Shown here: positions 3,301 through 64,000 of the stretch, piece after piece | Layout: every line of letters begins with the position of its first letter | Numbering within the stretch: position 1 is the stretch's first letter | Made by a program: the position numbers and the translations under genes | Source: Haliotis asinina | Lineage: Eukaryota; Mollusca; Gastropoda; Lepetellida; Haliotidae | Direction: 5' to 3' | NCBI RefSeq assembly: GCF_037392515.1 | Contig: NC_090291.1 | Coordinates: 38,029,001 to 38,093,000 of the forward strand | DNA length: 64,000 nt | The notes under the pieces: generated by a model | Told to the model about the DNA's origin: nothing | Seen by the model: only the letters and a program-made list of their open reading frames with translations | The model's database searches: none

Positions 3301-6300
3301 AATGGGGTTGTGTGGTCAGACTTGCAGACTTGGTTGACACATGTTACCATATCCCAATTGTGCAGAATGATGCTAATGCGTTCGCTCACTTGATTGTCAG
3401 CTCCAGACTTAAACATTTAAAGCTGATATATACTCTTTCCTAAGTGCATTATAAAACAACCAAACAATCAATTTAAACAGACACATCAGTTTTTAAATTC
3501 AGACAAACCTTCAGAATGCTATTTACACAGGGAGGGATGCTTCATTACTGCAAGAAATCAGTTTTGTGAGATAACATGCTAACAAATCTAGTAAGACAAA
3601 CCATTTGTGCATGGGCAGTTCCATGTAGCTATCACATCAGTTTTCACCAAATCCGAGCACTTGGCTTTCCAGTTTTGTTGAACAACAGCTGAGCAAACTC
3701 TTGTAAAATGAGTGCACAGCAGGACTGTCTGTTTCTGACTAGTCAACTGTAGTTGCTGCCTGGAAACGAAAACATACATTACAGATTTATTGTCTTGATG
3801 TAGGAACACTTTAAAACAAAATTAGCCTCAATGGTAGTTTCAGAGGTGGGGTGCAGGGTGTATGCACCACTTTCCCCTCATACCTTCATTGTTAATAGTG
3901 CCTTTAGATAATTCATAACTTAAATATAATAACAACAAGAATATTCTCAATGTGTCTTTCCAAGGCTAGATATCCTGCTCAAAGTGCACAATTTGATCAT
4001 TATTACTCTGGATAACCCAAGCTGCCTTTCAGGAGCTAAACGGTTATTAGTCGTAAACTTATTTCAACGGGTACCCATTTTCTGTTTACGAACAGAGGCA
4101 ATTTTAAACAATCTCACTTGCCGAAAGTGAGACCATATGTACCATTTGTACTTTGTTGTGGGGCAGAACTGAAGTCTTAGGAACTCTGAGGAGTCAAGCT
4201 GCCAAACATGGTCACCCATTCAAAGCTCTCTTAGAGTGAAGATAGTCGTAAGAGGCATACCTTAACATACGACTATCTCCTTGCTAAGAGAGCTTCGAAA
4301 ATCTAGGCCATGGCTCAGATTTCTCAAAACAAACTTAGGTTTTGAGTTTGGACTCAAATTTGAGAAAGCGCACTTCCCAGAATGAACTGAAATTGATATT
4401 AAACTCAAACATCATAGACAATTTGAGATTACAGATGACATAAGTTGTTAGGCCTCTTTTATGTAAAAATCCAGTTGAGATAAAAATTCAGATGTTTTAA
4501 ATTGTAAACTGTTGAAATTTGTCCCACAATCATTCTGTCACAAATTGATCCATGAAGATCCAGGTTTGAACAGTAACCTATGCTTGTAAGAGTCAACTAA
4601 CAGGATCAGGTGATTAGACTTGCTGAAATTTTCAACACATATCATTACCTCCTAGTTGCATGGATCGAAGCTCGTACTTCATCACTAGATTGTCTGGTCC
4701 AGACTCAATCATTTACAGACTCCCTACAGTAGGAATACTGCTGCATGCAGCGTTAAAGAAGCATGAGAACCAGTGACCACACATTCCTTGGACTAATGTA
4801 CATAATTTAAACAGAACCTACTACAAGGGTCCATATAGATTTCATTTTACAGATATTTTAGGGTTGAGGAAGTGAAAATACCATGGAGGGTACAGTGTGA
4901 CCATTGACCCAGCCTCTATCTGCAGTTTATCCATCATCTGCTTGGAGAACAGGATCAACTGCTTCCTCCATTGGTTGTCATTATCAACTGGGCTGTTACC
5001 TTCACCTCCCTTCTCATCAATGTCAGCTACTTCACAGTGAGCAAGTTGCAGGGAAAAGAGGATTTCAAACCTCAAAACCCGCACAAGGATGGCTTTAGAA
5101 GAATCTGTAAAACAGCAGTCAAGGTTGTTCCTGAATTCATCTGTGGTGATAATATTGATTTCCTTCGAGATATTGTACTATTATTTTGTTAAACGTGAGG
5201 TTGTGAAGGCTGCCATACCTTTCATTTTTGAAAGTAATCATCATATTAGCAATTTCATTTCTACGATCACCCTGAACAACAGACAAAACTGCACAAACTA
5301 AACACAGTATGACTATATGAAATCAATTTAGTCTGTGTTAATAAAATATAAAAGTTGTTGCCATCACCTGTGTGGTCAGTGTGCTGATGTTCCCACATCC
5401 TGACAGCTGACCTCTCTCTTGCCTGGACACGGGCCAGCTGCTCTGCAAGGCCACCTCTAGCCAAGGGGAGATAAACATGTTGCTACTCATACAGGTCAGC
5501 TTTTCAAGTTGAAATAATAACCATCAAATTGACAAGTCCATGTAATTAAATGCATGTAGTATATATGGGTCTTTTGTCAACTAACAATTTATCTCATTGC
5601 TTTCTCAAAAATCCTTAAATTTAATGTGCAAAATAGTTTTCAAATTTTGCTAGCCAGCCATGCTAGCTATGTCTGAAAGTTACTACCCCACAAATATTTC
5701 ACAAGCCTGAAATTTTAATATGGACACTAAGCAAAAGAAACTATACTACCCATCTAAAGTTTAGACTCGCTTAAAAGATTCACCATATGTAATGCACATA
5801 AGTGGCTACACTCAACATTAATGCCTTTAAAGATATAGGGGAACCAACTGATAACCTTATGCAGATAAATTGCATGAGGACAAGGTTTCAAACTGCTGAA
5901 AAGCATGTGTAAATATCGTGCATGTGAACAGCTGTGTCTTGGTGTAAAGTTAAGAATTCACCAATTTTCACTGAGTTTCATCATTTATTGAACTCATGAC
6001 AATAATCTTTAGAATGTTACGAATTTATTTTACAAAGCATTAGCTAATGTGTAATATATACCTTTAAACAGTATGGAATATTTTGCAAAATCTAGTTTAG
6101 AATAGCTGACTGAAATATGTGGCTACATTTACACTAGTGATGGGGTGTAAAAAAAATAGATGAGAATAAGATATCATCAGCATGACACAGGTTACATCAT
6201 GTTGAACATTTTTATCAGGTCATAATCTTACATGATTTTAAAATGTGTTATAACTTAACAAGTTGGAGAGAGCAATATATTTACAAAACAACACCATGAA

Positions 6301-15300: not shown

Positions 15301-18300
15301 TATTCTACCTCAGACATTCACAGGTCTCATGGGAATCATTTCACAAAGTGATAGTAAAGGTGTTGATAGCTATGACTGTTGTTAGTCATATGCCATAACA
15401 TAGGCTTACGACAGTCATAGCATTTCAATCGTTTTGTGAAGCAATGCTCATCATGCTGGCTTACAGAAACACCATTGTGCATTGTAAACCGAAAGTCACT
15501 GTGTTCTGTAATCTGATTGGTTGAAAAACATGATCAAATGGTATTGTAAACCAAAAGTCACTGTGTTCTGTAATATGATTGGTTGAAAAACATGATCAAA
15601 TGGTATTGTAAACCAAAAGTCACTGTGTTCTGTAATCTGATTGGTTGAAAAACATGATCAAATGGTATTAGATTCCCGGAAACTGAAAGACTATTCACTG
15701 TGTATTGTCACGCAAACAATTGTTTTGTTGTGTCATCAACAGTGGTGACGTAATTCAAATCATATTGTGACGTAAAGTTAGAATGACGTCACAAATGAGC
15801 AACTCCAGATGCTACCATGGGAACTAGCTGATACGGCCAGCTGATGACACTTCACTGCTGTACCCCTACTCGATGTAAACGAGTGCAGACAGTAAAACGC
15901 CTTTGGTTTACTTTTATGTTTACAATGTCGATAAACATCATGTGTTGGCCAATTTCCGGGTGTAATTGAGTATTTGAAGCACGGGAATATTTCATTTGAA
16001 ACCTCCGGCTGACGCCGTCGGTTCCAAATGCATTCCCGTGCTTCAAATACTCAATAACACCTGGAAATTGGCCAACACATGATGTTTATCTCCTAACTGT
16101 AGCATGGATACTTCAGTTAAACATAGCATACTGACATTGAACCAACCAGTCCTTGTCTCATCCACTCAGTGTCAAAGGTCTTCCACCTTACATGTTTGCT
16201 TGTATTATGTGGCCAGGTATTTATGATCTTACAGTGAGTGGGTAGACTTTATATACACTAGACAAAGACCGCAGTTAAGTCTTTGTAATTTTTCTTACCA
16301 TCAGTTTCCAAGTTTTATAGTGGGAATGCATCATAGTACAAAAATGCAACACTTGTTGCTTTAAAGACCAAATATACTTTTTTTTTTTTGTGCTCATATG
16401 AAGGACTTGTGGATAGTCTTAAGCGGGACACCAAATTCATTCATAAAAAAAGTCTGGTTAATTAATAACGAGCGATTAAAAGTTGCCCAAAAGTTGTTTG
16501 CTTGCCTGCCAAAGAAACCGGGTTAAGTAATGCTGTCTCCAGAACACTGCAACAAACTGCAGTGACGTCATGTGAGGAAGGATTTTCAGTTAGTTGCATA
16601 TGAAATGTGTAATGAGCTCGTCAATTGCTGATTTCTCGACGTAAACAAAGACATGCTGAATCATTGTCAATTGCTCCCAGGTGTCGATGCAAGGATTTCC
16701 ACCTGACATTTCTGTTCATGCTAGTAATGTTTGTGAGTGTGAAGCGAGCATTGTGGAAGCAATCTGGTCACGATTGCAGGTTTAGACAAAGCTATAAACA
16801 GGATAATCCTGGAGATGTACATGAATACTACAGCGACTCACATAAGTATACCTCACACTATGTTATGGAGGTGCAACCCTCTGAAAGGTTGAAATTTCGT
16901 TCACAGGAGAGGATTGTGCTTTGTTGTCAAAAAAGTTGAAAAGTTAAAAAGCTGAAGTTGAAAAGGTACTAAAATGTCAAAATGAGGAGTTTTAATGATG
17001 GGGCTTCATTCATAATGATGTCAATCAAAATGATTTATGTATTTGTACCCTCCTAGAGTATATGTAATTTGTAAAACAATATCAGTCAAGAACAACATTC
17101 ATATGAAAAATGTCAAAAGAGATTTGTTGATAAAAAAAGTCTTTCAATTAATTGGACTACCATACAACGAGCCTGACTCACTGTTCTCATCATGAGCACA
17201 AATCTATGCAGTTGGGATATGATATGTGTCACTATCAACAATGTCAGCAAGCCTCACCACCTGATACCGTTAGTCACCTCTTATGACAAGCATAGGATGC
17301 CTAAGATACTCCTTTGAGCAGTAGTTTAGTTACCATAGATATCATTTTAGCAAATAAATGAGGGTGGAAAGTCTGAGTTCATGCAATACGTTTTCAACTC
17401 CCATGAGCAGAACTGTACTGACTAATCTACTGGGAAACATGAATAAGTTGAGAACCGACCTGACAACTGACAAAAGCTTATGTCCCCAGTGGTCAGCAGT
17501 GAAAGTACACCTAGCCATCTCACCTGTCTGGGTATGTCTGCCACTTGAACACATGGCTTCTTGTCTTCCTTGGCCCCGTTATTCATCCCCTCCCCTTCGT
17601 CTTCCGTATTGCTGGAGATTGCATCAATATCTCCAGCAGACTCGTATAATCCATGAACATCAAAATCTGGACATGTTGTCCTCAGCTCTAGCTTAGCTGC
17701 TTTAGGAAATGCTTTCTTCTTTGTCAAAGGTGTGCAGTCCTTTGTCATAGTTGGTGTGTAATTCTTCCTCTTTGCTGATTTTCTAACTTGTTCATCAGAT
17801 TTGACATTGGTTTCCAATTCTTCACTATCACTTGAGGACCAAGATATGAGTTCAGCATCTGAAAAGCAAACAAGCAAGTTGAAGGCATCCATATGTACCA
17901 TATTTATTTCAACATTATTGTGATACGTACTCACTATTACTTCTCAGGTGGTATTCAAGTAATACCACACACTTGTGGAAGGTGTGTGCATGTTTAGTTT
18001 AGAAGTTTATATGATATCTCAGACTGACTCAAGTTTTCAAAATGAACCAATGCATTTAAACTTATATAAACCTGTAGAGGTTATGAATTCTTTGAAGAAG
18101 AAGTCCTCCTTGGGGTACATACATACCATTAAAATGTCCATTATCAAATGCCTGCGACAGTTGTACTAATATTCCAATAAATATTTTACAAAACAAAAAA
18201 CCTGTTTTTGTCTTGTGAGACCACCCCCAACAGGACACCTTCCTGGCCCCCAACAGCCAAGAGCAGGTAACTCTCGCCGTCTACCTCGTATCTCACTTTT

Positions 18301-21300
18301 CATGCTAAACTGGTCGCACCACAGCAGAAACTGCCATGTCTCCTGTAGGAGGGACGGAGACACCGTACCGCCCTGTTTCAGGATATAGGTCATTGCCGTT
18401 TGGTTCTCCATCTCCCTACGCACCACACAGCCGCAAGCCTTCTCCTGAAAGTGTTGGAACACTAATCAGACTGCTCTAGCACATTGATGTGCAGGTGTGT
18501 TTCGCTTTGTAACCACTGGTCCGAAACTGATTGACCGCCCAGGCCCAGTACAACCCCCCACCCTGTGAAGGAAGCATCCGTCTGAATTGAGAGATCTGGT
18601 GAGGGAATGTCCAGGGGCAGGCCCCGGGATAGATTCCCTACCACTGTCCACCACCGTAAATGAGGAATTAACCATCCTGGAGTGTGGAGAATAAACTCGT
18701 AACACTGGGAATGAGCCCACATCCGAGCTAACGCATACTGAATGGGTCGCTGTTGCCGCAATGTTGCCTAACAACTGGAGCCAAGTCCGAGCTGAGGCTG
18801 AGGGTGACTCGAGAAACTGTGAAACAATTCTCTGAACTTTGGAGATTCAATCCGGAAACAGGGAGACCAAGCCTCGTGCTGTTTCAAATTGTACGCCCAA
18901 GATCAGATTCTGTGTGGGAACTAGGTCTGATTTCTTGAGATTGATAATCCAGCCACATAACTGCGAACATCGTGTCTTGATTCAAGTGAACGGCAAATGC
19001 CCGAAGGAGCCAATCGATCAGGTACGGGTGACAGCACCTGCCCTGTGACCTGGCCACTTGCGCTGGGATTAGCATAAGCTTGGTGAACACCCTCGGAGCC
19101 ATAGCGATGCCGAAGGGAAGCACCCGAAACTGATAGCATATCCCGTCAAAGGAAAACCGAAGGTACTTCCTGAACTCGGGATGCATGGGAACATGCAGGT
19201 ACGCGTCTCTGAGGTCGATGGACGTAAACCTGTCGCCTCTTTCTACAGTTGAGATCACTGACCTTAGTGTGTCTCTGTCTTGAATGAAGGTACCTGTAAC
19301 ATCCTGTTCAGTCCTCTTAGATTTAGAATAGGTCTGAACCCTCTGTCCTTTTTGGTGACTAGGAAATAAGTGGAATAAAATCCCTCTTGTTCATGTCCCT
19401 TTGGAACCACCTCTATGACCGCCTTGACCAGTAATGAGCACCTCGGCTTTCTCCGGAACAGCTGGCACTGGAGTGCAACGGATCCCAGGAAAGGAAGGTG
19501 GGTCTCGCTTCCACTGTGGTAAGTGGCCGTCCCTGAGTGTGTATAGGAACCAGGGATTGGATGTAACCTTTTCCCATTCCGGCAGGGATGTGCGGTAATA
19601 GGCAGTGAATCCCCGACTTCGGCAGTGCTCCGACTGCTTGATTCGGGGTCAACAAGGGCTCCAGAGGACATATTACTGGGAAGCCAGGACCAACTTCCCT
19701 TTCCTCTGAAAAGGCTGCTGGGGACCAGCTGCCTTGCCCTTGCCCCTACCTTTACCTTTGCCTTTACACGCCTGCAATGGCTGTGCCCATTTAGCAGTGT
19801 CCTTGGCCGGAGGTAAGGACTGAGGGCCGCGTGCGAGACGAATGACTGCTCCAGCAAGGGTTTAGAATCCTTGAACATGGAGACAGCCTCCATGGCCTCT
19901 CGGACAACCGTTGCCGCTCCCGAAAAAAATGTAGATCCCATCCGATAGGGCAGCGCTAGGACAGCTTACTGGGTGGCTGGTGAATACCGCGCCACCGACA
20001 ACCAAAGCCTACGGAGGGCCATAACAGCAGACATCATCTGACACGCCGAGGACCTGATAGAGTCCTGTGCCAAATGAGACTGCACCTCTGTAAGCTGCTG
20101 CGCTAGAGTAGAGGGGGCATATTCCTCCTCATCTCCGCCACCGTCCACAAGGTGATCTTGTAACACCGAAGTTTATGTGGCGTGGATGGTGACCTTTAGA
20201 CATTGCGCAGCATTGCAGTACTGCTCCTCAAATGAGCGACAAGGCGACTTGAGAGCAGTAACATTGGATGTAAATGGTGGCAACTGACGACCCTGCTCAG
20301 CCATGCAATCATCGACCACTGGAGGGTTGTATAAGCCGAGGTCCCCCATCAGATATCTGCGATCTAGTTCTGGTAAATCAAAACATGATCAAGAACCCGA
20401 CAGAAGCTGATTAATTTCTTCGGCCAGAACGGAAGGAAGTATGCAGAGCCGGGTATCCACCACCTTCGCCGGAGCGAATGCCTTGTCTGGGAGCCAAAAC
20501 TCTGCGGGGTCAGGCGCCGCCAAGGCAACAACCCCCTGAGAAAGGACAGTAGCTATACGCTCCCACCTTGACCCTCTCCCTCCTCCATAGTTTCCTTGAC
20601 ACAATCCCCCAGCAGCGACATCTCTGAGTCAAAAGACAGCTCCGGAGGATTGGTTGAGGGAACACACGAGAGTGAGAGAGGCTCGAGCAGAGCCGAGCGG
20701 CTCGATGCTATCGACCCGACACCAGAGATGGAGTCCGGGTGGCTGATAGCCAGTAATGCTTCCAGTGTAGACATGACAGGTGCTGCACCAATATTGGCAG
20801 CCACAGAGTGGCCGGATACCGATCCCGCCGCCGGCTCACCCCCTAAGGAATTCCCCACACCAACACCACAGGCTTGGTTGGGGATTCCTTTGGATGCCAT
20901 ATTAGTAGACACACTCGATTCCGGATGGACGCTGATCTCCTGGCGGAGACCAGACATCACGTCCGAAATGAATGTATGTACAGATGCCATTTGCTGCTGT
21001 GAAAGAGAGGCGATTAGATCCAGTGTTAAGGGTTGCGGGGTTTCAGGAGGAGGTGCAGAAGATGTTTTCTCACTCATATTCACTTCACTTCGTAAGCTTG
21101 CTGTATTTGTAGAGCTGTTGAATGGACGACTGTCTTGAATGACGACAGAATGAAAAGTGAGGTACAAGGTAGACGGCGAGAATTACCTGCTCTTGGCTGT
21201 TGGGGGTTCAGGAATGGGCCCTGTAGGGGTGGTCTCACAAGAAAAGAACGAGTTTTTGGTTTTGTAAAATATTTACTGGAATATTGTTACAACTGGCATA

Positions 21301-38344: not shown

Positions 38345-41300
38345 TCACGAATCTTTCTGTCGAGATAATTTTCGATTCCTAATAAAGACAGCCCTTCTCT
38401 CTCTGAATAACAAATGACGATCTTTAAGTTCCACCTTCCCATCCTTGTACAGGTTCCTGATCTTTTCAGCTTCTGGGATGGGATCCATTTTTCCCGACCG
38501 ACGCATATAGCGTATGACCATATTGGTCCCTCCAAGTGTCACCGTGTAGCGGGCAGGTGTTGCAAGCTTGTACATCAGGTAGGCCAAGGCCACGAATCCA
38601 AGACCACCGGCACGGAAGGGTTTTATAAGCGTCTCACTCAACCCAAGTTGTTCCATCAGCGGCACAATGTCTACTCCACTGCAATAAAGAAAACAATGCA
38701 TCATGGCATGTTGGGAATTGGTTGAAATCTCACAATTGATGACTGCTACATTATCAATGACCAATCATCGAAAACAACTGGTTAGCGTCATTTTTTAGAT
38801 TTTCCTATCCAGGCTGTTATTGATTCAACTTACTACTCCAGTGATCAATGGCATGAACATCGATCTGCGCAATTGGGAACCGATGACATGTGCCAACCGA
38901 GTCAGTGAGTCTGACCACCCAATACTGTTGGTCAACTCTTACGAAAAGCATAGTCGCCTTTTATGATAAGCAAAATTGTCATGAACATAAACTTCCTGGA
39001 GACTTATTCTGTCATGACTTTTCACTAAATTTCAGTCAGTGAAGTGAGTCTTCTAAGAGGTAAACATGCTTTCATGCACTGACAACTTCAAAGATATGGT
39101 CCATTGTTAAGGGTTCCAAAGACTAAAAGAGTAGTTCCAAAACCGTTTGAGCTCGATTATGAGAAAATATGACTGACTGCTTGCTCATTTCGTCACTGCA
39201 ACCAATCTTCATCTACTCATTAATGAGTAAGTCAGACTCCATGGTACTATGGTAGTGAAGCATCTGTCCATTCATTTATTTGGGGTTTGTGACAGCACCC
39301 AACAGTTGATGACAAAGTTCTGGCCCTCACAATTAGTGCACACTTGTTTTCACTTGCTTTACACACCTGTCATCTGAAACTTTTTTGGAAATGGGCAAAA
39401 AGAATTCTGAAAATGTTTCTTTCTTTTTATTCTGCAGATAAGTTTGAGAGCAAACACCACCAACATTTGCTCCACAAAACACACATTTATCATGTTAAAT
39501 ATTGAACATCAATGTTTACATGTTTAATAAACAACCAAAGTTTGGGGGAAGACTTGAAGAAACTCTGTTTTATATCATCCTACTTGAATGATAAATGAAA
39601 TATTGTTTTTGGCTTTTTTCACAAACCAACAGGAGTGTAACAAATTGGGCAGTTATGAAGCATCCAACTTCGACATAAGTAAATTTATCCTCAGTACCTT
39701 TTGTTACACTCCACTACTGATTCTAACAAAGCCTCATGGGAGGTTGCGTCAGGTAACCTTTGAGATTGACCAATCAGAACACAGCTTTCCAAATCGCGAA
39801 AGTGGACATTTGCATATACCTTTTGAATTTTGTATCTCAAAGAGGTTCATACCCAAACGATTCCAAATGCTATTTAGCATATAATCACTTCGGGGTGATG
39901 CACACGGCGCATGTTACAACCATGACAATGGTGAGTAAACAGCCGCTGAAAATAGTGTTATGGGCAATATTCAAGGATGTCATCTTGCGGAAATATTAGC
40001 TAATGGTAACCATGTCAACAGAAACCCTAAAGCATACATAATGCAGGTCAAATAACTGTGTTATATGGGGATTTTTGTTTGTGGAGAGATCTGTGTCAGT
40101 GACCTGAATATTTTGTAGGTCCCTCCAATCCCTAAGTAGTAGCCGTTGTCCGATTGGTTAAATCTATTTAACCGTCTCGCTACTGACTGGACGCTCATAG
40201 GTCGCTCCAAGGCTACCTCCCATAAGGTTTTGTTAGATTCAGTGGTGGAGTGTAACGAAAAGTACTGAGGCTAAGTTTACTTAAACTGCATCGAACTATT
40301 GATGCATTGCATTAGTTGAGTCTCCAATAGTAATAAATCGATGGTAGAAACAAAAAACTATCGACAGACCAGTATACTGACTTCCATTGAAAAATGTGCA
40401 GTACAATATACTAAATATATTTCATTTAGAGTTATCCCTGCTTGGTACCTAACCTAACCTAAACAAACTTGATCTGGGTTTAATGTTTCTTGTCAGCTAT
40501 TAAAAGAAACAGAAATAACTTCAGCTTGTTTTTCATTTCAGAAAAACTATCTATTCATTTGGGAAATGATTTCAAATGAGACAATTCAAGGTGAGAAAAG
40601 TTATTGCAGAGCCAACAATACACACCTGACTGCTGCCATGTAGAAAGATCCAAACCAGACCACAGAGGTTACACAGTGCACACCTATTAGAATCTTCCCA
40701 TGCTCTTTGTATGTTTTCCTGAATCTCTGGAACACTGTTAGTGTATTGTCATCTTTTCCATCCACTTCATTATGGACTTTATTGTCATCTGTTACTTTAT
40801 TGGCATCTAACTTTTGGTTGGTGCTGAAATCTCTCACACTAACACAGAAAGTTTCTGGGACTGACGGTTTACAAAATGGGGAAACCAAGACTTGACTGTC
40901 ATGTAGAAAAGTTGAGAACAATAATGGCCCTTTTGACAAGTTTCTTGACGAAATGAACTGATTGTTCACAGTACTTGGAACTACTGCACAAACTGAAAAA
41001 AAAGGAGAAACACAATGAGCATCACAACATGTCATGTGGACAATATCTACCATACGCCAAAGTCTGCAACAGAGGAAACTATTTTTGTAAGAATTAATGG
41101 GAACTTAACTTGAAACTTTCACATTGCCAACAAGGTATACTGCTTTATTTTCACGCTATAAATCTGAGGGAGAATTTAGCAGCCATACTTAACGGCTGCA
41201 GAAATGAATGGAAATGGAGAAATGTTGAGGAACACATACGAAAGTCATGAGAGGCTATGGTGTCCCATGACTTTCATTCATTAATACTAACAAGTGGACC

Positions 41301-42124
41301 TGATGCAATCTACCATAACTGAACTATTTTGTATTCTAAATGATAGAATGTGATGAGAAATGATCTCATATGATGCAAATCAACAAAGGCCTCAGGTATC
41401 AGACGTTAAATTCTCAAGTACACATGAAGGACAGAGAACTAGATAATTCATTTGGGTAGTCAGGTAACAAAAACGTGTGAGTACTTCATAAGGATTATTA
41501 AATATTTATCTTAGGCACTCACACGTCTGCTGCAAATTGGCAATAAAATATTGCACATATGATAATCAGTAAGTGCTATGCTCATTTTAGATCCAGCTGT
41601 AATGTTACTTTTATGGTCTTATTTTAAAGTTAACTTCAATGAAGCAAAAATGAGCCTTTTAAAACGATTTTTTTAAAACACTTTTATTCAGGAAATGAAT
41701 GTGTAAACAAACTTGCAAAAAAGCGAAAGCTTATATTGATGTTGTTACACAATTAATTTAAGCAGCCCTTCTTTTGAAATTTGAAAGAGCAGGTTTAATA
41801 ATCATGATGAAATATGATAGGAGATGTTATCATCTGATACTGATAATCATGTTTTTCTAAATGATTTAATCAAAACTGACATAAAAAAAAACCGCACACA
41901 CCAAGAAATTAGAACAGACCAGACATTTCAGATTACCACGTCAAATATTCTTACATCTTGACTGGACTGAATCTATCATTAAAACTACCAACGTACAAGT
42001 ATGACAAACACTTACCCCTACTAGCGTCCAGAAGCTTCGGAAGATTGTTTGAGAAACTTGGAGGACAACTTTTTAGTATAATCCTTAGGTTTGGCGTGAA
42101 AGCCATGCATCGAAACGATGCCAT
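38345..42124 (-). CDS. FAM210A: FAM210A, mitochondrial DUF1279 protein
   Basis: Complete three-exon gene: 42124-42016, 40992-40626, 38678-38345; 269 residues (human FAM210A has 272). The N-terminus (MASFRCMAFTPNLRIILKSC) is basic and low in acidic residues, as expected for mitochondrial import. Residues about 122-220 form DUF1279: TVFQRFRKTYKEHGKILIG, a membrane segment VTSVVWFGSFYMAAV, then SGVDIVPLMEQLGL, and ATPARYTVTLGGT, which is nearly identical to human FAM210A and separates it from FAM210B. The C-terminal tail is basic. Known role of the family: an inner-membrane protein linked to mitochondrial translation and muscle and bone maintenance. Intron 2 carries a hAT-like MITE. The start lies about 380 bp from the divergent RNMT candidate start. 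Confidence 0.93.
38830..38975 (-). repeat. SINE-B fragment
   Basis: Minus-strand partial copy in FAM210A intron 2: CAGTGATCAATGGCATGAAC, GATCTGCGCAATTGGGAACC and AGTCAGTGAGTCTGACCACC. Confidence 0.78.
39671..40288. mobile_element. hAT-like MITE, copy 2
   Basis: About 618 bp, alignable throughout to 7827-8442 (shared CAATCAGAACACAGCTT, TATTCAAGGATGTCATCTT and GAGATCTGTGTCAGTGACCT). The flanks read catccaac/catcgaac, again an 8-bp duplication with one mismatch. It lies in FAM210A intron 2. Confidence 0.75.
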
Positions 42125-42502
42125 TGCTACTGCGCTGACATGTGCTACCTGATCGACACGAGACGGAATCTTACTCGGGATTGTTTACCATGCTAACTTC
42201 GACCTCAAGCTCCACATGCCGCATGTCACGGATGTAACGACAACTCGGTTCTGTCTCTTGTGCTTATAACAGCGCAAAGTTTCAAGAGCATCATTTATGT
42301 AAAACCAATGGTACCATAACCCGGCTCTACAGCTAATTAACAGCATAATTTTATTTGTTTATTAGACTGACAATTATTACGTAAATGTTAAAATCAAGCC
42401 ATAATGCTAGATAAAGTAAAGTTCAAATGCATTTAGGGTATGTATCGGTTTGTTTTGAATATATCATGTACGACAACCGTAGTCCATTAGATTTCCGTAA
42501 GC
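42125..42502. promoter_or_regulatory. Probable bidirectional promoter of FAM210A and RNMT
   Basis: 378 bp between the FAM210A start codon (minus) and a candidate RNMT start codon (plus, 42503). No TATA box is placed for either side. The FAM210A side has more CpG (cacgagacgg, catgccgcatg), while the RNMT side is AT-rich. A shared promoter is inferred from the short head-to-head spacing. Confidence 0.55.
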
Positions 42503-53505
<11,003 letters not shown>

Positions 53506-56094: not shown

Positions 56095-58269
56095 AGACGG
56101 CATCGGGAGGATTGCTTGATTCCAGAATCTCAAATCATTACCAGCCAGTTGATACAGGACAGCGGAATAAAACATCCCCAGTTGAAAGTTATGTATTCTC
56201 ATAATTCATACCATATTGGTTATGAATTTGGTGAATTTCACGTTTTGTTTATGTGTCCTACCTTGGGCCTTGAAAGGAAAAATAGTTATCAACAACTATC
56301 ACTGTAGCTATTCAAATATGCACAGAACAGTTTTTTCACCTTTATAAACAAATACGAAATTAGCAATATTTGACAAAATAATGACTCACTTTAAGAATCA
56401 TTCAGTTCAGAAAACATCCTTATGCAAGACGTTGTCTGAAGCATTGCTAAATCACTGCATACTACTATGATACTAGGCTACATAAAAAATGCTTCTCTTT
56501 TTGGGGTCAGTTGTGCGCGTAACACCTTTTTATTGCCGATTTTTAAAAAATAGTTTTGACTTGGCCGCGTCCCGATTATCCATTTGTTGACTATAAGAAT
56601 GAGTGTCTGAAAGAACGAGTGTGACTGAATGTACAAGTCATCAACACGTGGTAAACTTCCCAAGATGTATTTCTGAAAGAGAGAAAAAATAAAAATGTGT
56701 TCCTCGCTCATCACTTTTTTCTATCCAAAAGTTTAAAAAGTCCTACCGCCCTCGTCACATTTGAAAATTATGTGCCCGTGAAACATTTAAATTTTTTTAT
56801 GAAGCTCTATTCCTAATCAGTGTAAACACTGGAAACCACTTTAATACAACATCGGTAATCTGGCTGATATATGTGCGATCCCCAGAGGATATTCTGACTG
56901 GTAGTGCGTTATCGGTAAGTTATCAAAGAGAAAGCCGTAGATTGGCTTGTAAGATATTTTAAATAGTTTACAGACACAATTTGTGAATGGGAATTCTTTG
57001 TAAGGTGTTCAGTACTTCAGGAAATGCACAGTTAAGATTCTGCTTAGCGCATGCGATATAATCAGTCTTTGCCAACTGTTTATGTCAAGATGCTCGTTGA
57101 TATTATCCGGGTAAAATCTGTTGATAACCATATTTAATATTAGAAACTTTCTGAACAGACACATATTCAAATGAATACATCTTTTGAGGATGTTTTTATT
57201 CTATAACATGCCATGTCTGATGTTGAAGTTCTTAAATATATGTGGTTAAACTCAGCAAAGGCTGGAGCTAACGTCTGTGAGATATGAGTTTGCATCTGTG
57301 AGTGAGTGAGTTAAATTAATATTTACCCTCACATCAGCAATGTCTCAGCCATGACGTGACGAAAACGATTCATACCATAAATACGACAGGTTTTTGAAAA
57401 GTAAATCCTGTCAACGATGGACAGTAAAATTATTAGTGTCATAGAAAAATAGTCACAGATATATGAATACAAAACTAGCATGTAAAACTAAAACAGTTTA
57501 ATTACAGAAGACAATACAGTACAAAACGGGGGCTATTTTAGCTTCAATTAATTAATCTCAGTTTAGTTAATTTAACGCATACTAGTATTTGACATTCGTA
57601 TATACTGGCACTAGATTTCAGATCTCTTCACTAAATGACAAAAAATATAACCAAGATCACATTATACGCACCATCACTGTTTAATTATGAAACCTAACTT
57701 CCTAAAGTCCTAAATTCGTACTATTAGTATCCAGTTACATTTAATCTTTGAAGTAATTTATGAATGTAAATCTAACCCCACTTCATCACAAGACGTATGT
57801 CGCTCTCTATTATGTTTAACAATTTATTTTCCGTAAATGAACTCGCAAGGTGCCGACTGGCTCTGGATTCGATGTGAGATATACACTGGGTGGAGGCCTC
57901 TTCTACAAATGAGATTATTTTACCCTGATCCTAACTCTACTTAACGTGGACAGGATGTAAAATGACACGCCTCTGCCTTTTTCATAAATTTTGCTTGGAC
58001 TACTTTTTTAGGCTTCTCTGCATTCGAAGGGCAGCTAGAACTCTCATCCCTAGTGTAGGCAATCGGAACACACCAGTAACAATGTCCGCCAAGTGAAGCA
58101 TACTAATATGTTTAAACGCAATGTTGTTGTAGTATATCGTGTATGTGGCTAAGCGCATATATATGGGTATATGTAGATTATGTAAAATGAATTTTTTATT
58201 TCGCATATGTTCGAGTTGTACAATGGTGTTGAAACAAGAAGAACGAGAACGAAGATCCGACACATAAAC

Positions 58270-58475
58270 GAGGTTTTCCGAACGTAACCGGAAGTTGACA
58301 AATTGTTCGACGAGCGTCTCTTTGTCTGCCGCTTAACGGCTGTCTCTTAATCCTTACCATCGAGAGACTAAACACTCTCTTATTGTTTAATCATATTTAT
58401 TTTATCATATTTTATCCCTTTCTTAACCATACAGTCCTCCATTTTCGTGTCAAAGTGTATATTTATTTCGTAAAT
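58270..58475 (+). promoter_or_regulatory. PABPN1 promoter / 5' UTR
   Basis: CpG-richer stretch upstream of the PABPN1 ATG with a perfect ETS/GABP motif CCGGAAGT (58288-58295) and no TATA box. This is typical of a housekeeping promoter. A pyrimidine-rich run (ctctttgtctgccgctt) at about 58317-58333 may mark the start region. Confidence 0.5.
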
Positions 58476-61400
58476 ATGGCCGATATTGAAAATGGTGATC
58501 AGGAGGAAAGTTTTACAGAAACCAATGGAGATTTCGACACGAGTCAGTTTGATCCCGAAGCCACTGACGCCGACACCAGTGCAATAGTATCTGAAGATGT
58601 TGGCGTGGAAGATCCGGTCTGTATGAATATACTAGATATGAGTCCACTAGATATACATATGCCTAAGGTGTTTAATAACAATAGATATGTGTCTCATGTC
58701 TCGTTGAAAAGTTAGTGTAGGTTCCAACATAGACCCACAGAGTGTTTATCTGTGCAAGTTGGAGCAGATGACATTTCTGTATTTTCCATCACTACTGCTA
58801 CAATAATTCCTGATGATCCAGTGGAAAGAAAACAATTATGTTAAACATTATTTAATCTGCAAACGATATATTTCTCTGAACACTGTCAGATTGTCACACC
58901 CGAACTTACCGAGGTAGCATATGTTATGTTCTGTTGTGACAATGGCAAGATATTTGATGACTGTTGCAGGAACTTGAGGCTATCAAAGCCAGGGTCAAAG
59001 AAATGGAAGAGGAAGCTGAAAAATTAAAAGAAATGCAGAAAGAAGTTGATAGTCAAATGAATATGAGCTCTTCATCTATATGTGGGTTTTAGTCAGTAGA
59101 GACACGAACATCGTTCCTTTTATACTATCATGCACTGTAAAGAAACCATTGGGTTTTCATAGGTTTAATAGCTTTTCTCAAAGTATCATCCATCAATGTG
59201 ATCAATGCCATCATCAGTATTTAATACTGTTTTGGCATGCTAACAATTTGTATTTTTATTTATTTAACTGTTGCCTAAATTAGAAATGTATAGTTCTGGC
59301 ACTGGTGTGTCCAGATTGAATTTGCTGACAATGCTGAGAATTATGGATGAGTGTAAAGTGTTTTGATAGTTTTACTAGCTTAACAGCCATCACATTTCTA
59401 TACATTCAATTGAAGATTCTTAAAACTTACATGTACTTGAATTATAACATCACACCCCATGGAAATAATTGTTTATTGGCTCAGTTAAATACATTTTGTG
59501 GCTTTCTATGTGATGTTTTTTACCAGTCATTGTGTTAAATTATGCTATATCTAAAACTTCAATAAAATAATAAGGCCTGCACAAGACTGATTAGTACTGT
59601 TAATTATAACTTGCTCCAAACTTTTACATGGACAGACTTGTTCATTTCAGCATCTTTCCCAAGCGTTGATGAAAAAATAGAAGCTGACGCTCGTTCAATA
59701 TATTGTGGTAATGTGAGTATATTTTAAGTGACGATATTCTGATTTTACAATACTGAATCATTAAGTTTGTATGTAAGTAATTTTGGTATGGGAGGTTCAA
59801 GCTTCCATTGCATTTTATTTGTAGTACCAATACTGCACTGTGTGAGCAAAGCAATTACCATATCACCTCAGAAATCCTAGTTTTTGGGGGTTTTTTTTCT
59901 TTCAAAATTTTTTTGTTTATAAAATATACTCTTTAAACATTACAGTGAATGTTTCAGGTTGATTATGGTGCCACAGCAGAAGAATTGGAGCAACATTTTC
60001 ATGGATGTGGCTCAGTGAACCGAGTGACAATACTGTGTGACAAATTCACTGGCCACCCAAAAGGGTGGGTTATCTTTGAATGTCATTTATGATTTTATGC
60101 ATGTAGGATTCTACATTAGTTTATATTAAAGTTGTAGCTAACACATTCCAAGAAGTGATATTTGCACATGTTGGACTTCTGATTTTCCATGATTGTAACA
60201 TAACCACTGCTGATCTTGGAGAAAAAATGCTTTTATAATTGCAAAGTTACATCTCTACCTGGAACAATTGTCAGAATTTTTCTTTTTGTTGTCCCAAATG
60301 AATTGCCAAAGAGATGTCTTTCAGAGACATCTCATTCTCAAACAATCACATGGGGAAGTATTGGCTGAAGTTCAAATTGTAACTAACAATTGTTAGTGCA
60401 AATAGAAAGAGTCAGTTTCCAAGTTAGACCGGTGAGCTGGGTTAACCAAATGACTAAAGTGTTTGCTAGTCACGCCATAGGCCAATATTAAAATATTCCC
60501 CACATGGCTACAATGTGGGAAGACCACTTCTGTTGTCCCCAACTCAGATGTTGCTGAAATATTGCTAAAAGCAAATTACAGTCATACACACTGCAAACTT
60601 GACTCATATTTTAACATTTGAGGAATTATGAATTCAGTATGCAAACCATGTTTTACAATATGTCATGTTGCTGTGATATAACTCTTGAAACTGCATTACT
60701 TGTCAAACTTTTACTGTTGCAGAAAAATATATATTACCTTATGACTGTAAAGAAAATGGTGCCCAAATGTGTTTGTAGGCAGAGGTTGCATCTTTGCTAA
60801 TCTCCATAATTGCAGTTCTGGAAGTTTGTCAAGAGAGCCGATACATGATTCTGATATCCCAAGAAATGATGTTTGCACATGTTGGACTTCTGATCCTTGT
60901 GATTGTAACATATCCACTACTGATCTTGGGAAATACCTATATGCATGTATATGATTGTTTCTAAAAAATCTAAGAAATTAGGTATTTGAACCATGCTCAG
61001 TAAATCATTTTTATGTAGAGTCATGATCCAAACACTGAAATTAAATGGAGTGTCAACAGTGTTTTAGAACATGGCTCTTCTTGTGACACTGCATGTTTTT
61101 ATTCAGTCAATCACCTTGTACATTCCAAAAACTATAATGTTGCCTGTCCATTATTAGACAAGGACACTCGAATAAGTTTCTGGTTTGCAGATGGCATTTG
61201 TTTCTCATTTGCATGTTTTAGTTTATGACAAAGCAGAGTTGGCAAACAAAGTCTTCTTAGAACATATGACTCTCAAAGATTTCAGTGTTGTCAAACAATC
61301 ATACATGTAGTGATCGTAATATTTCCCTGAGCAAGTCCTCACTTTCAGTTAGTGCCATGTTTATGTGTTTGAATATTGAAAGACATATTTTGAAAAGCCG

Positions 61401-62818
61401 TCACTGCCTTATAGGACCTTTATCATGTTATTCCAAGAAATGATGTTTGCACATGTTGGACTTCTGATCGTTTGTGATTGTAACATAACAACAACTGATC
61501 TTGGAGAAATGCTGAATTTTCAGTTAGTATAAACTTACCTCTGTACCGTGTCCCTGACTGTATTTCTTAAAGGAATCTTAGAGACATTGTGGCAGTGACT
61601 TTGAAAGGTCTCACCAATATCCAACCCACCTGCATGTAGTGATTATAAAAATGCCTTAGATAAGTTTCTAGTCTTTTTTGGGTTTTTTTGTTGTTTTTTT
61701 TGTTTGTTTTTTCGTTTTGTTTTTGGGGTTTTTTTGGAATGGGACTTTTTGAAAGATTTGAAATATTATATTATTCATAAATTTTTCCAAGAAATGGACT
61801 TTGGATCCTCTTATTTCAACATATCCACTGTTGATCCTGGAGAAAAGGCTGTCTGTTATTAGATGACAGTCATGTTCGTATTTTGTGCTTCTGAAGAAAG
61901 ACTGCAACAGTTTTTCAATTTTCTAATTCAAGACTAATGTTTTGTTCCAGATTTGCATATATTGAATTTGCTGACAAAGATTCAGTAGCAACTGCAATGG
62001 CTTTGGATGACTCGCTTTTCAGAGGTCGACAAATTAAGGTAAAGTACCAGTTGTCCTTTGATTGCCAGTCTTTCTCAAAACAAATCTGGTATGTTTTCAG
62101 GACATGAATACCTTGTAGTTTGATAACAGAAACCATATTACAGTTTGTTTACAAAAGAGTTATGGCCCTTGTAATGCGTTTCTTGACATAGTGTAAGTCA
62201 TCCCCAGTGGGAACAGATTTTCTTTGGAAAAAGTGATGGGTAGGGAAACTGAATATGTTTCATTGCATGAGATGGGTGGTGAAGTCAAAACACAAGAACC
62301 AGATAGGAACAGAACACTGGTGGGGAATATTGATGACCATGTCATCATACTCATTGTTACTCTTCTGAGTTACTAAGATTGCTGTCTGTGTATCCCATGT
62401 TACAGTATTGTACAAGGCAGTGGTAGCATTACCTTCATACATTCCAATCTGGAACAGCTCTGAGGGAATAATATACTTGGTTGTTAACCCCCTGGTGTGT
62501 AATGGGAGGTGGAGATATAGTTGACGCCTCGTCTGTCTGACCGTCCGTCCATCTAGAACAGCTCTGAGGGAATATTTTAGTGTTGTGTTTTTTGTGGTGC
62601 AAAATGTGTAATGTTTACCCAGTATGTTTTTTCATAGAAACTCAGTCTGAAATAGTGCAGTGTATGGACTGTTGCATTTATTTCAAATCCATTTTATGGT
62701 TTCAGGTCTCTCCAAAACGGACAAATAGGCCAGGCATTAGTTCCACAAATCGCTTCCCACGCAGTAGAGGCAGAGGCAGGGGACGTGGGTTTAACCCCAG
62801 GGGAAGAAGACCATATGG
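58476..62818 (+). CDS. PABPN1: PABPN1, nuclear poly(A)-binding protein (3' end probably outside window)
   Basis: Binds new poly(A) tails, stimulates poly(A) polymerase and sets tail length in the nucleus. Exons: 58476-58616, 58970-59081, 59651-59712, 59958-60064, 61951-62038, 62706-62818. Domains: an acidic N-terminus (residues 1-47; no polyalanine run, unlike human); a coiled coil with [20 protein letters not shown] (48-67) and QMNMSSSS; and one RRM with RNP2 IYCGNV (101-106) and RNP1 KGFAYIEF (140-147), [17 protein letters not shown] and [19 protein letters not shown]. An RG-rich tail ([20 protein letters not shown]) follows. The exon 1 donor (gtctgt) is weak, but VEDP|ELEAIK matches the human IEDPELEAIK. 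Reading on from 62818 gives a hydrophobic end and a stop at 62849, unlike the usual RG- and Tyr-rich end. I infer a splice (GG|gtttgt) to an exon beyond 64000 or unrecognised before it. Confidence 0.94.
60065..61950 (+). repeat. PABPN1 intron 4 with four copies of a ~75-bp block
   Basis: Blocks at about 60149-60225, 60856-60935, 61432-61512 and 61792-61852 share CCAAGAAATGATGTTTGCAC, ATGTTGGACTTCTGAT, TTGTGATTGTAACATA and CCACTACTGATCTTGG. The block ends CCAAGA/TCTTGG are complementary. Weaker similarity between blocks (ATGTAGTGATTATAA, AGATAAGTTTCT-type pieces) suggests old tandem duplications. A SINE-A copy lies at 60430-60590. Confidence 0.7.
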
Positions 62819-64000
62819 GTTTGTTGCCTTTCTTCTGTTGTCCAGTTAATTTCATATCAGACAATTATATATATTTTGTCAACCAAGAGTAGGTCCTTTT
62901 TAAATTATTGATAGCACAGACCGGGAATTCAGTATCACAATTCTACTGCTTGACAAGTATAAGATGAGCCTTGATTTGACACATTACCCCAGTTTGCATA
63001 TGTGGGAATGCCCTCCAGAACATTCCATTTGAAACAAGAGGCAAACAAATTGTCTAAATATGGAAGAGTTCAATTTCCTCGTGCAAATCTTGTTGTGATG
63101 GTGTTTTGCTGAACTAAGTCGGTTTACAAGGCACGTGTTAAACAGTAGCGCTATTGATTTCATGCCACGGTCAGCATGTATTGCTTGTGCTTAATTGGCA
63201 ATCTGCCTGTAGCAACCAAGTGTATTTGTCCCGATTTCTTGCCCTGCCTGCATGTCACAAACGCGTTTACTGTGCTTGCTTATCCAATACTTGTCAAGCA
63301 GTAGTATCACTCATGCTTTTCTTAGTGCTTAATCTCATTGTTCAAAGAAGGAGAATCAGGAAGTTCTGTGTTCTGTAAAATCTACATCTACATGCCAGTC
63401 AGACATTCTACTGATTAATCTTGATGTGGTATCGTGCAATCAAAGAAGTTTTGAAAGTATTTTATTACTGCCATCTGATAAATTTCAAGTCATTTTTTCA
63501 TTTGTATTTATGGAATGATATAGCAGTAGAAACATGACATAATAAAACCAACCCTCTACATCCCCAGATGTTTGGGAGACACAGCAAGTAGTTACTAGTC
63601 ATAGCAAACTACACTTTTTGTGTAGCCAGTTGAATTATATGTAGGTTTTAGATGAAAAATCTCGTGTGATTCTGACTCAAAGAGCTATCAATATATTCTT
63701 TTATAATTCTGTTTCATGAACAGAACAGTTTCGTAACACATACACACATTCACTCACTCACCTCACTTGCTCACTTTTGTCCTGAAATTTTGTGAAATGA
63801 CCTTTGAAATGAAGTTTGCACCCCACCTTTCTCAAAAAGTTGTTTCTGCCTTTGGCAGATGTCTTTTACGATAGTTTTTATTATCAAAGAAATTGTAATT
63901 AAAAATGACATTTGTTTCACCCAAATCACTTCTGTTAGGATGACACATGTCATTCTTCATTTAGTTCATGTGACAAGCGCAAACAAATTATTGTATGTTA
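62819..64000. other. Right edge: probable PABPN1 intron or 3' flank
   Basis: AT-rich, with a short ACTCACTCACCTCACT run at 63748-63770. I searched for an RG-rich or Tyr-rich terminal PABPN1 exon and found none I could support. No other gene is visible. Confidence 0.5.

Follow-up and report, generated by a model that had tools for sequence, protein, structure and literature searches.

In the genome of the gastropod Haliotis asinina (1.14 Gb, 159 contigs), FAM210A and RNMT are neighbouring genes on opposite strands with their heads facing each other, and a single CpG-rich block covers both candidate first exons. We consider it likely that this is an orthologous divergent pair kept since before the protostome-deuterostome split, that one two-way CpG-rich promoter region serves both genes, and that the pair survives by virtue of its interlocked promoters. 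The stretch of DNA analysed, hereafter the window, comprises 64,000 nucleotides (C12:38029001-38093000), and positions are counted from its first letter. Spliced models, in which the junctions are GT/AG and the frames join, place FAM210A on the minus strand (42124-38345) and RNMT on the plus strand with its last stop at 53505; the outer coordinates, 38345 and 53505, are the stop-codon ends of the two models. The models and the family matches described below confirm the head-to-head arrangement on divergent strands proposed in the initial annotation. The exons, together with the next gene past RNMT, are as follows.

42016..42124, minus strand: FAM210A coding exon 1, ATG at 42124; frame open, donor GTAAGTG, in phase with exon 2
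40626..40992, minus strand: FAM210A coding exon 2, spliced model
38345..38678, minus strand: FAM210A coding exon 3 with stop, spliced model, PF06916
42503..42512, plus strand: end of the candidate RNMT exon 1, ATG 42503, inferred; donor GCG/GTAAGA, frame continues into RNMT via acceptor 43508 or 43466
43508..43594, plus strand: second exon of RNMT, assuming splicing to acceptor 43508 (the alternative acceptor being 43522); the rival ATG 43537 lies within it
45032..45078, plus strand: RNMT coding exon, spliced model
46164..46302, plus strand: RNMT coding exon in which the methyltransferase domain begins, profile match and spliced model
47067..47198, plus strand: RNMT coding exon, profile match and spliced model
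47936..48060, plus strand: RNMT coding exon, profile match and spliced model
49663..49844, plus strand: RNMT coding exon, profile match and spliced model
50481..50651, plus strand: RNMT coding exon, profile match and spliced model
51103..51217, plus strand: RNMT coding exon, spliced model
52220..52339, plus strand: RNMT coding exon, spliced model
52895..52928, plus strand: RNMT coding exon of 11 residues, spliced model and alignment to human RNMT
53348..53505, plus strand: last RNMT coding exon, basic C-terminal extension and stop, spliced model
58476..62846, plus strand: PABPN1-like, next gene past RNMT, some exons seen; identified by similarity of frame 59949-60089 to polyadenylate-binding protein 2 in the PDB (E 2.5e-21)

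The FAM210A model comprises three coding exons and 270 codons including the stop, and its product matches PF06916 in Pfam (E 3e-22, profile positions 1-86 of 88). Its domain is identical to that of human FAM210A at 49/104 positions and to that of human FAM210B at 32/102, both human sequences being provisional versions. As judged from these identities, the gene in the window is most likely FAM210A rather than FAM210B. Inspected by eye only, the C-terminus carries 46 charged residues after RRSGKM; a C-terminal coiled coil is given as a FAM210A feature in PMC7863409.

Taken from ATG 43537 to the stop at 53505, the RNMT model is made up of 11 coding exons, which total 427 codons with the stop counted. 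It matches PF03291 (Pfam, E 8e-124, profile positions 3-314 of 315), and its best match in the PDB is human RNMT chain 3bgv (E 2e-116). Five PF03291 matches were found genome-wide and all lie inside the window, giving a single RNMT locus. The N-terminus is short, with 61 residues ahead of TQSRIF from ATG 43537 or 74 from ATG 42503, and no long N-terminal region of the human type was found in the model. That region of human RNMT carries nuclear localisation signals and is accessory, the enzyme not being defined by it. Membership of the RNMT family rests on the catalytic domain of the predicted protein. A KRK run sits in the C-terminal extension (53348-53505).

The initial annotation had placed the two starts about 380 bp apart. 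ATG 42503, which stands in a good context (AGCATGG) and is followed after 10 exon bases by the good donor GCG/GTAAGA, lies 379 bp from ATG 42124. Six AG acceptors in the interval 43466-43530 were tested. Two of them (43508 and 43466) leave the frame open from ATG 42503 into RNMT and four do not, which makes the spacing of 380 bp plausible. Acceptor 43508, the better of the two open ones, would add 13 residues to RNMT. All six score low (0.6 for 43508) when set against the 12 acceptors of the FAM210A and RNMT models, which score 6.0 to 14.8 in sample and -2.6 to 10.4 when each is left out in turn. A start at ATG 42503, spliced via 43508, is plausible. Alternatively, the coding start of RNMT is ATG 43537 and exon 1 is non-coding, in which case the coding starts would be 1413 bp apart and the short spacing would not hold for them. 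Under either start, exon 1 would lie near 42.5 kb. The CpG-rich features there are as follows.

42125..42502, no strand: interval between the candidate ATGs, putative shared promoter; CpG o/e 1.21 for 42128-42504 vs 0.48 for the whole window
41851..42800, no strand: CpG-rich block over both candidate first exons, peak o/e 1.33; 94 kb contain 17 such blocks in all

This block is the sole CpG-rich one between 38345 and 53505. With an o/e of 1.22, 42101-42500 ranks at percentile 98.9 among the 400-bp segments of the window; segments of that length that begin at 43301-43501 have ratios of 0.11-0.24, and 43523-53505 as a whole has 0.33. The 17 CpG-rich blocks make up 11% of the 94 kb, a random 379-bp interval lies at least 90% within such a block in 5.5% of placements, and another block (57901-58700) also precedes the PABPN1-like gene, a single gene. 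The CpG evidence for a shared promoter is therefore modest: it supports a putative single promoter region serving FAM210A and RNMT, and CpG content does not prove two-way firing. Searches with simple patterns detected no TATA, Sp1, NRF1, CACGTG or full ETS site in 42125-42512. A motif scan yielded scattered CGGAA cores, one CCAAT and the palindrome TTACGTAA at 42377 (two occurrences in 94 kb), which we dropped as too post hoc to serve as promoter evidence. A structured RNA in the window was rejected as well, Rfam giving no match at gathering scores.

In human, FAM210A and RNMT presumably also stand head to head with adjacent starts, and the comparison base is one non-human genome. The adjacency of the two genes at 18p11.21, which the initial annotation had put forward, was seen in the literature: they are tabled together at this location in PMC6113773, and human CpG probes are annotated 'RNMT;C18orf19' in PMC6157157. 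The same two genes are accordingly found together in human and Haliotis asinina.

FAM210A-RNMT is another case of a known class, the conserved divergent pairs. Irimia et al. reportedly treated conserved divergently paired genes in 2012. The conserved bidirectional pairs in PMC3815023 and PMC3403606 share with the present one divergent genes, a short gap and a CpG-rich middle; they are defined by transcription starts, whereas FAM210A-RNMT is known here from candidate ATGs. Bidirectional genes, with starts less than 1 kb apart, account for 11.35% of the genes in human and 32.17% in fly, and Xu et al. argue that most divergent links have been shuffled in going from invertebrates to vertebrates (PMC3403606). 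Our literature search, in which papers were mostly judged at title level, came upon none that describes the divergent FAM210A-RNMT pair as conserved.

As a control, five other human head-to-head pairs were looked up in the Haliotis asinina genome. Only ORC1-PRPF38A was kept; none of the other four was seen in this arrangement. The survival of FAM210A-RNMT is accordingly notable, albeit not unique. SURF2 lies on C2, ~28 Mb from SURF1; both MutS_I matches are on C3 and DHFR on C16; no tblastn match to HSPD1 was found within 10 kb upstream of the HSPE1 match, nor one to AURKA within 10 kb upstream of the CSTF1 match. Pfam scans covered 3 of the 21 open frames listed for SURF1, 4 of 31 for DHFR, four for HSPE1 and one for CSTF1. 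The region upstream of a second PRP38 gene (on C2), outside the control set, was scanned too. ORC1-PRPF38A, named as a human divergent pair in PMC3815023, stands head to head at C7:39372001-39392000, the ORC1 call being based on two sub-threshold BAH matches (E 0.0044 and 0.011) and AAA motifs recognised by eye. It resembles FAM210A-RNMT in being a human divergent pair found head to head in the same genome. Nevertheless, its CpG o/e peaks twice, at 1.26 and at 1.22, with ~2 kb between the peaks and values of 0.73-1.07 in the intervening sequence, in contrast to the one block at FAM210A-RNMT.

In the reading that we favour, the shared promoter region would be CpG-rich, span a few hundred bp and fire both ways: minus-strand firing would yield FAM210A, and plus-strand firing a short first RNMT exon, joined by splicing ~1 kb downstream. 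The core promoter of each gene would then lie within the 5' region of the other, and because of this overlap few rearrangement breakpoints would spare both genes. No functional link between the two products would be necessary for the pair to survive. Alternatively, two independent promoters came to lie close together by chance, and the adjacency has been kept by slow genome rearrangement rather than by constraint. The retention of ORC1-PRPF38A with two separate CpG maxima indicates that close firing is not needed for a pair to be kept, and slow rearrangement would also fit the finding that RNMT shares its contig with a VAP gene and a G-alpha-s gene. We nonetheless regard this alternative as unlikely, as FAM210A-RNMT has one CpG block instead of two, and the four human pairs not found head to head in the regions searched argue that adjacency is not retained by default.

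The initial annotation had taken the shared promoter to be one that is not easily broken and had explained it by function, namely that it was selected since FAM210A and RNMT need joint expression, coupling mitochondrial translation to nuclear cap methylation. The pair is indeed kept while its flanks presumably differ from those in human. FAM210A is also described as binding mitochondrial EF-Tu and promoting the expression of mitochondrial-encoded proteins (PMC7863409). However, Xu et al. conclude that divergent pairs co-express more as a by-product of their arrangement, co-regulation not being the cause of their retention, and that a biological process common to both members is not found above chance (PMC3403606). 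The papers found with 'RNMT' and 'bidirectional promoter' concern other subjects, to judge from their titles and abstracts. Given the view of Xu et al. and the existence of a known class of such pairs, the earlier reading is weakest in its functional coupling, and we hold a need for joint expression to be quite improbable; the divergent pair and the one CpG-rich block across both starts stand. Chance re-association of the two genes in one lineage, for which a comparison with one non-human genome leaves some room, is scarcely credible: if partners were drawn at random from some 20,000 genes, we estimate the probability of this neighbour, oriented as it is, at ~1 in 10,000 or less. Divergent pairs surviving from the bilaterian ancestor offer natural tests of whether gene order is held by promoters, and FAM210A-RNMT, which joins unrelated pathways, separates structural constraint from functional co-regulation.

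A second gene of the FAM210 family lies nearby. The FAM210B-like gene (C12:38100575-38104523, plus strand) lies downstream of RNMT, starting 18,070 bp after its stop codon and 7.6 kb past the end of the window; this gene and FAM210A are the two PF06916 genes found genome-wide (three exon matches from 16 candidates). With provisional human sequences again, its domain is identical to human FAM210B at 59/108 positions vs 35/102 for human FAM210A, the two genes here are identical to each other at 37/102, and the two human genes at 31/102. On the same provisional sequences, 10 quartet columns place the A genes together and the B genes together, two group the genes by species and one is crossed; if right, this suggests that the A/B split predates bilaterians. 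The FAM210B-like exon contains a module of ~64 residues twice in tandem (34/64 identical), and the only Pfam match of the frame above cut-off is the FAM210 domain.

The order FAM210A, RNMT, PABPN1-like, FAM210B is a candidate ancestral cluster, in whose gap further genes may lie. In human, FAM210B is presumably on 20q13, in contrast to its position 18 kb from RNMT here. We tentatively propose, at somewhat less than even confidence, that FAM210A and FAM210B are pre-bilaterian local duplicates flanking RNMT, and that after the genome duplications of vertebrates the 18p11 copy kept FAM210A-RNMT and the 20q13 copy only FAM210B, the FAM210A-RNMT unit being the part that could not be dismantled. If so, the human pair would only look like whole-genome duplicates by position. 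We take human 18p11 and 20q13 to share the duplicate pairs GNAL/GNAS, VAPA/VAPB and MC2R-MC5R/MC3R, and RTF2 and CSTF1 to be the human neighbours of FAM210B. On C12, a G-alpha-s gene and a VAP gene, both identified by eye against provisional human sequences, lie 8.5 Mb and 2.3 Mb from RNMT, respectively, whereas RTF2 is on C7 and CSTF1 on C16. Two of the four human 18p11/20q13 markers are thus on the RNMT contig, for which the chance is ~1.5% given the size of C12. The placement of VAP and G-alpha-s speaks for a simple whole-block reading and that of RTF2 and CSTF1 against it, so that we treat it as a lead, not proof. C12 also carries another G-alpha gene that is not of the Gs type, and further G-alpha matches were obtained on C4, C5, C9, C10, C13 and C15. 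The FAM210B neighbour also helps to test the interpretation of vertebrate paralogy regions, as an old tandem pair can pass for whole-genome duplicates.

The genes flanking FAM210A-RNMT in human presumably differ from those in Haliotis asinina, and we assume that neither PABPN1 nor a DUF4502-type gene is near human RNMT. With flanks presumably unlike those in human, the pair seems to have outlasted its neighbourhood. At 20 kb past FAM210A, two minus-strand frames match DUF4502 below the cut-off (4845-5177, E 5e-5; 17425-17943, E 0.034), and these weak frames may belong to SPIDR. The cap-methylation gene RNMT and the poly(A)-binding PABPN1-like gene are close neighbours here. A GC-rich stretch on the minus strand at 18890-19390 of the window carries a reverse transcriptase domain (PF00078, E 2e-10).
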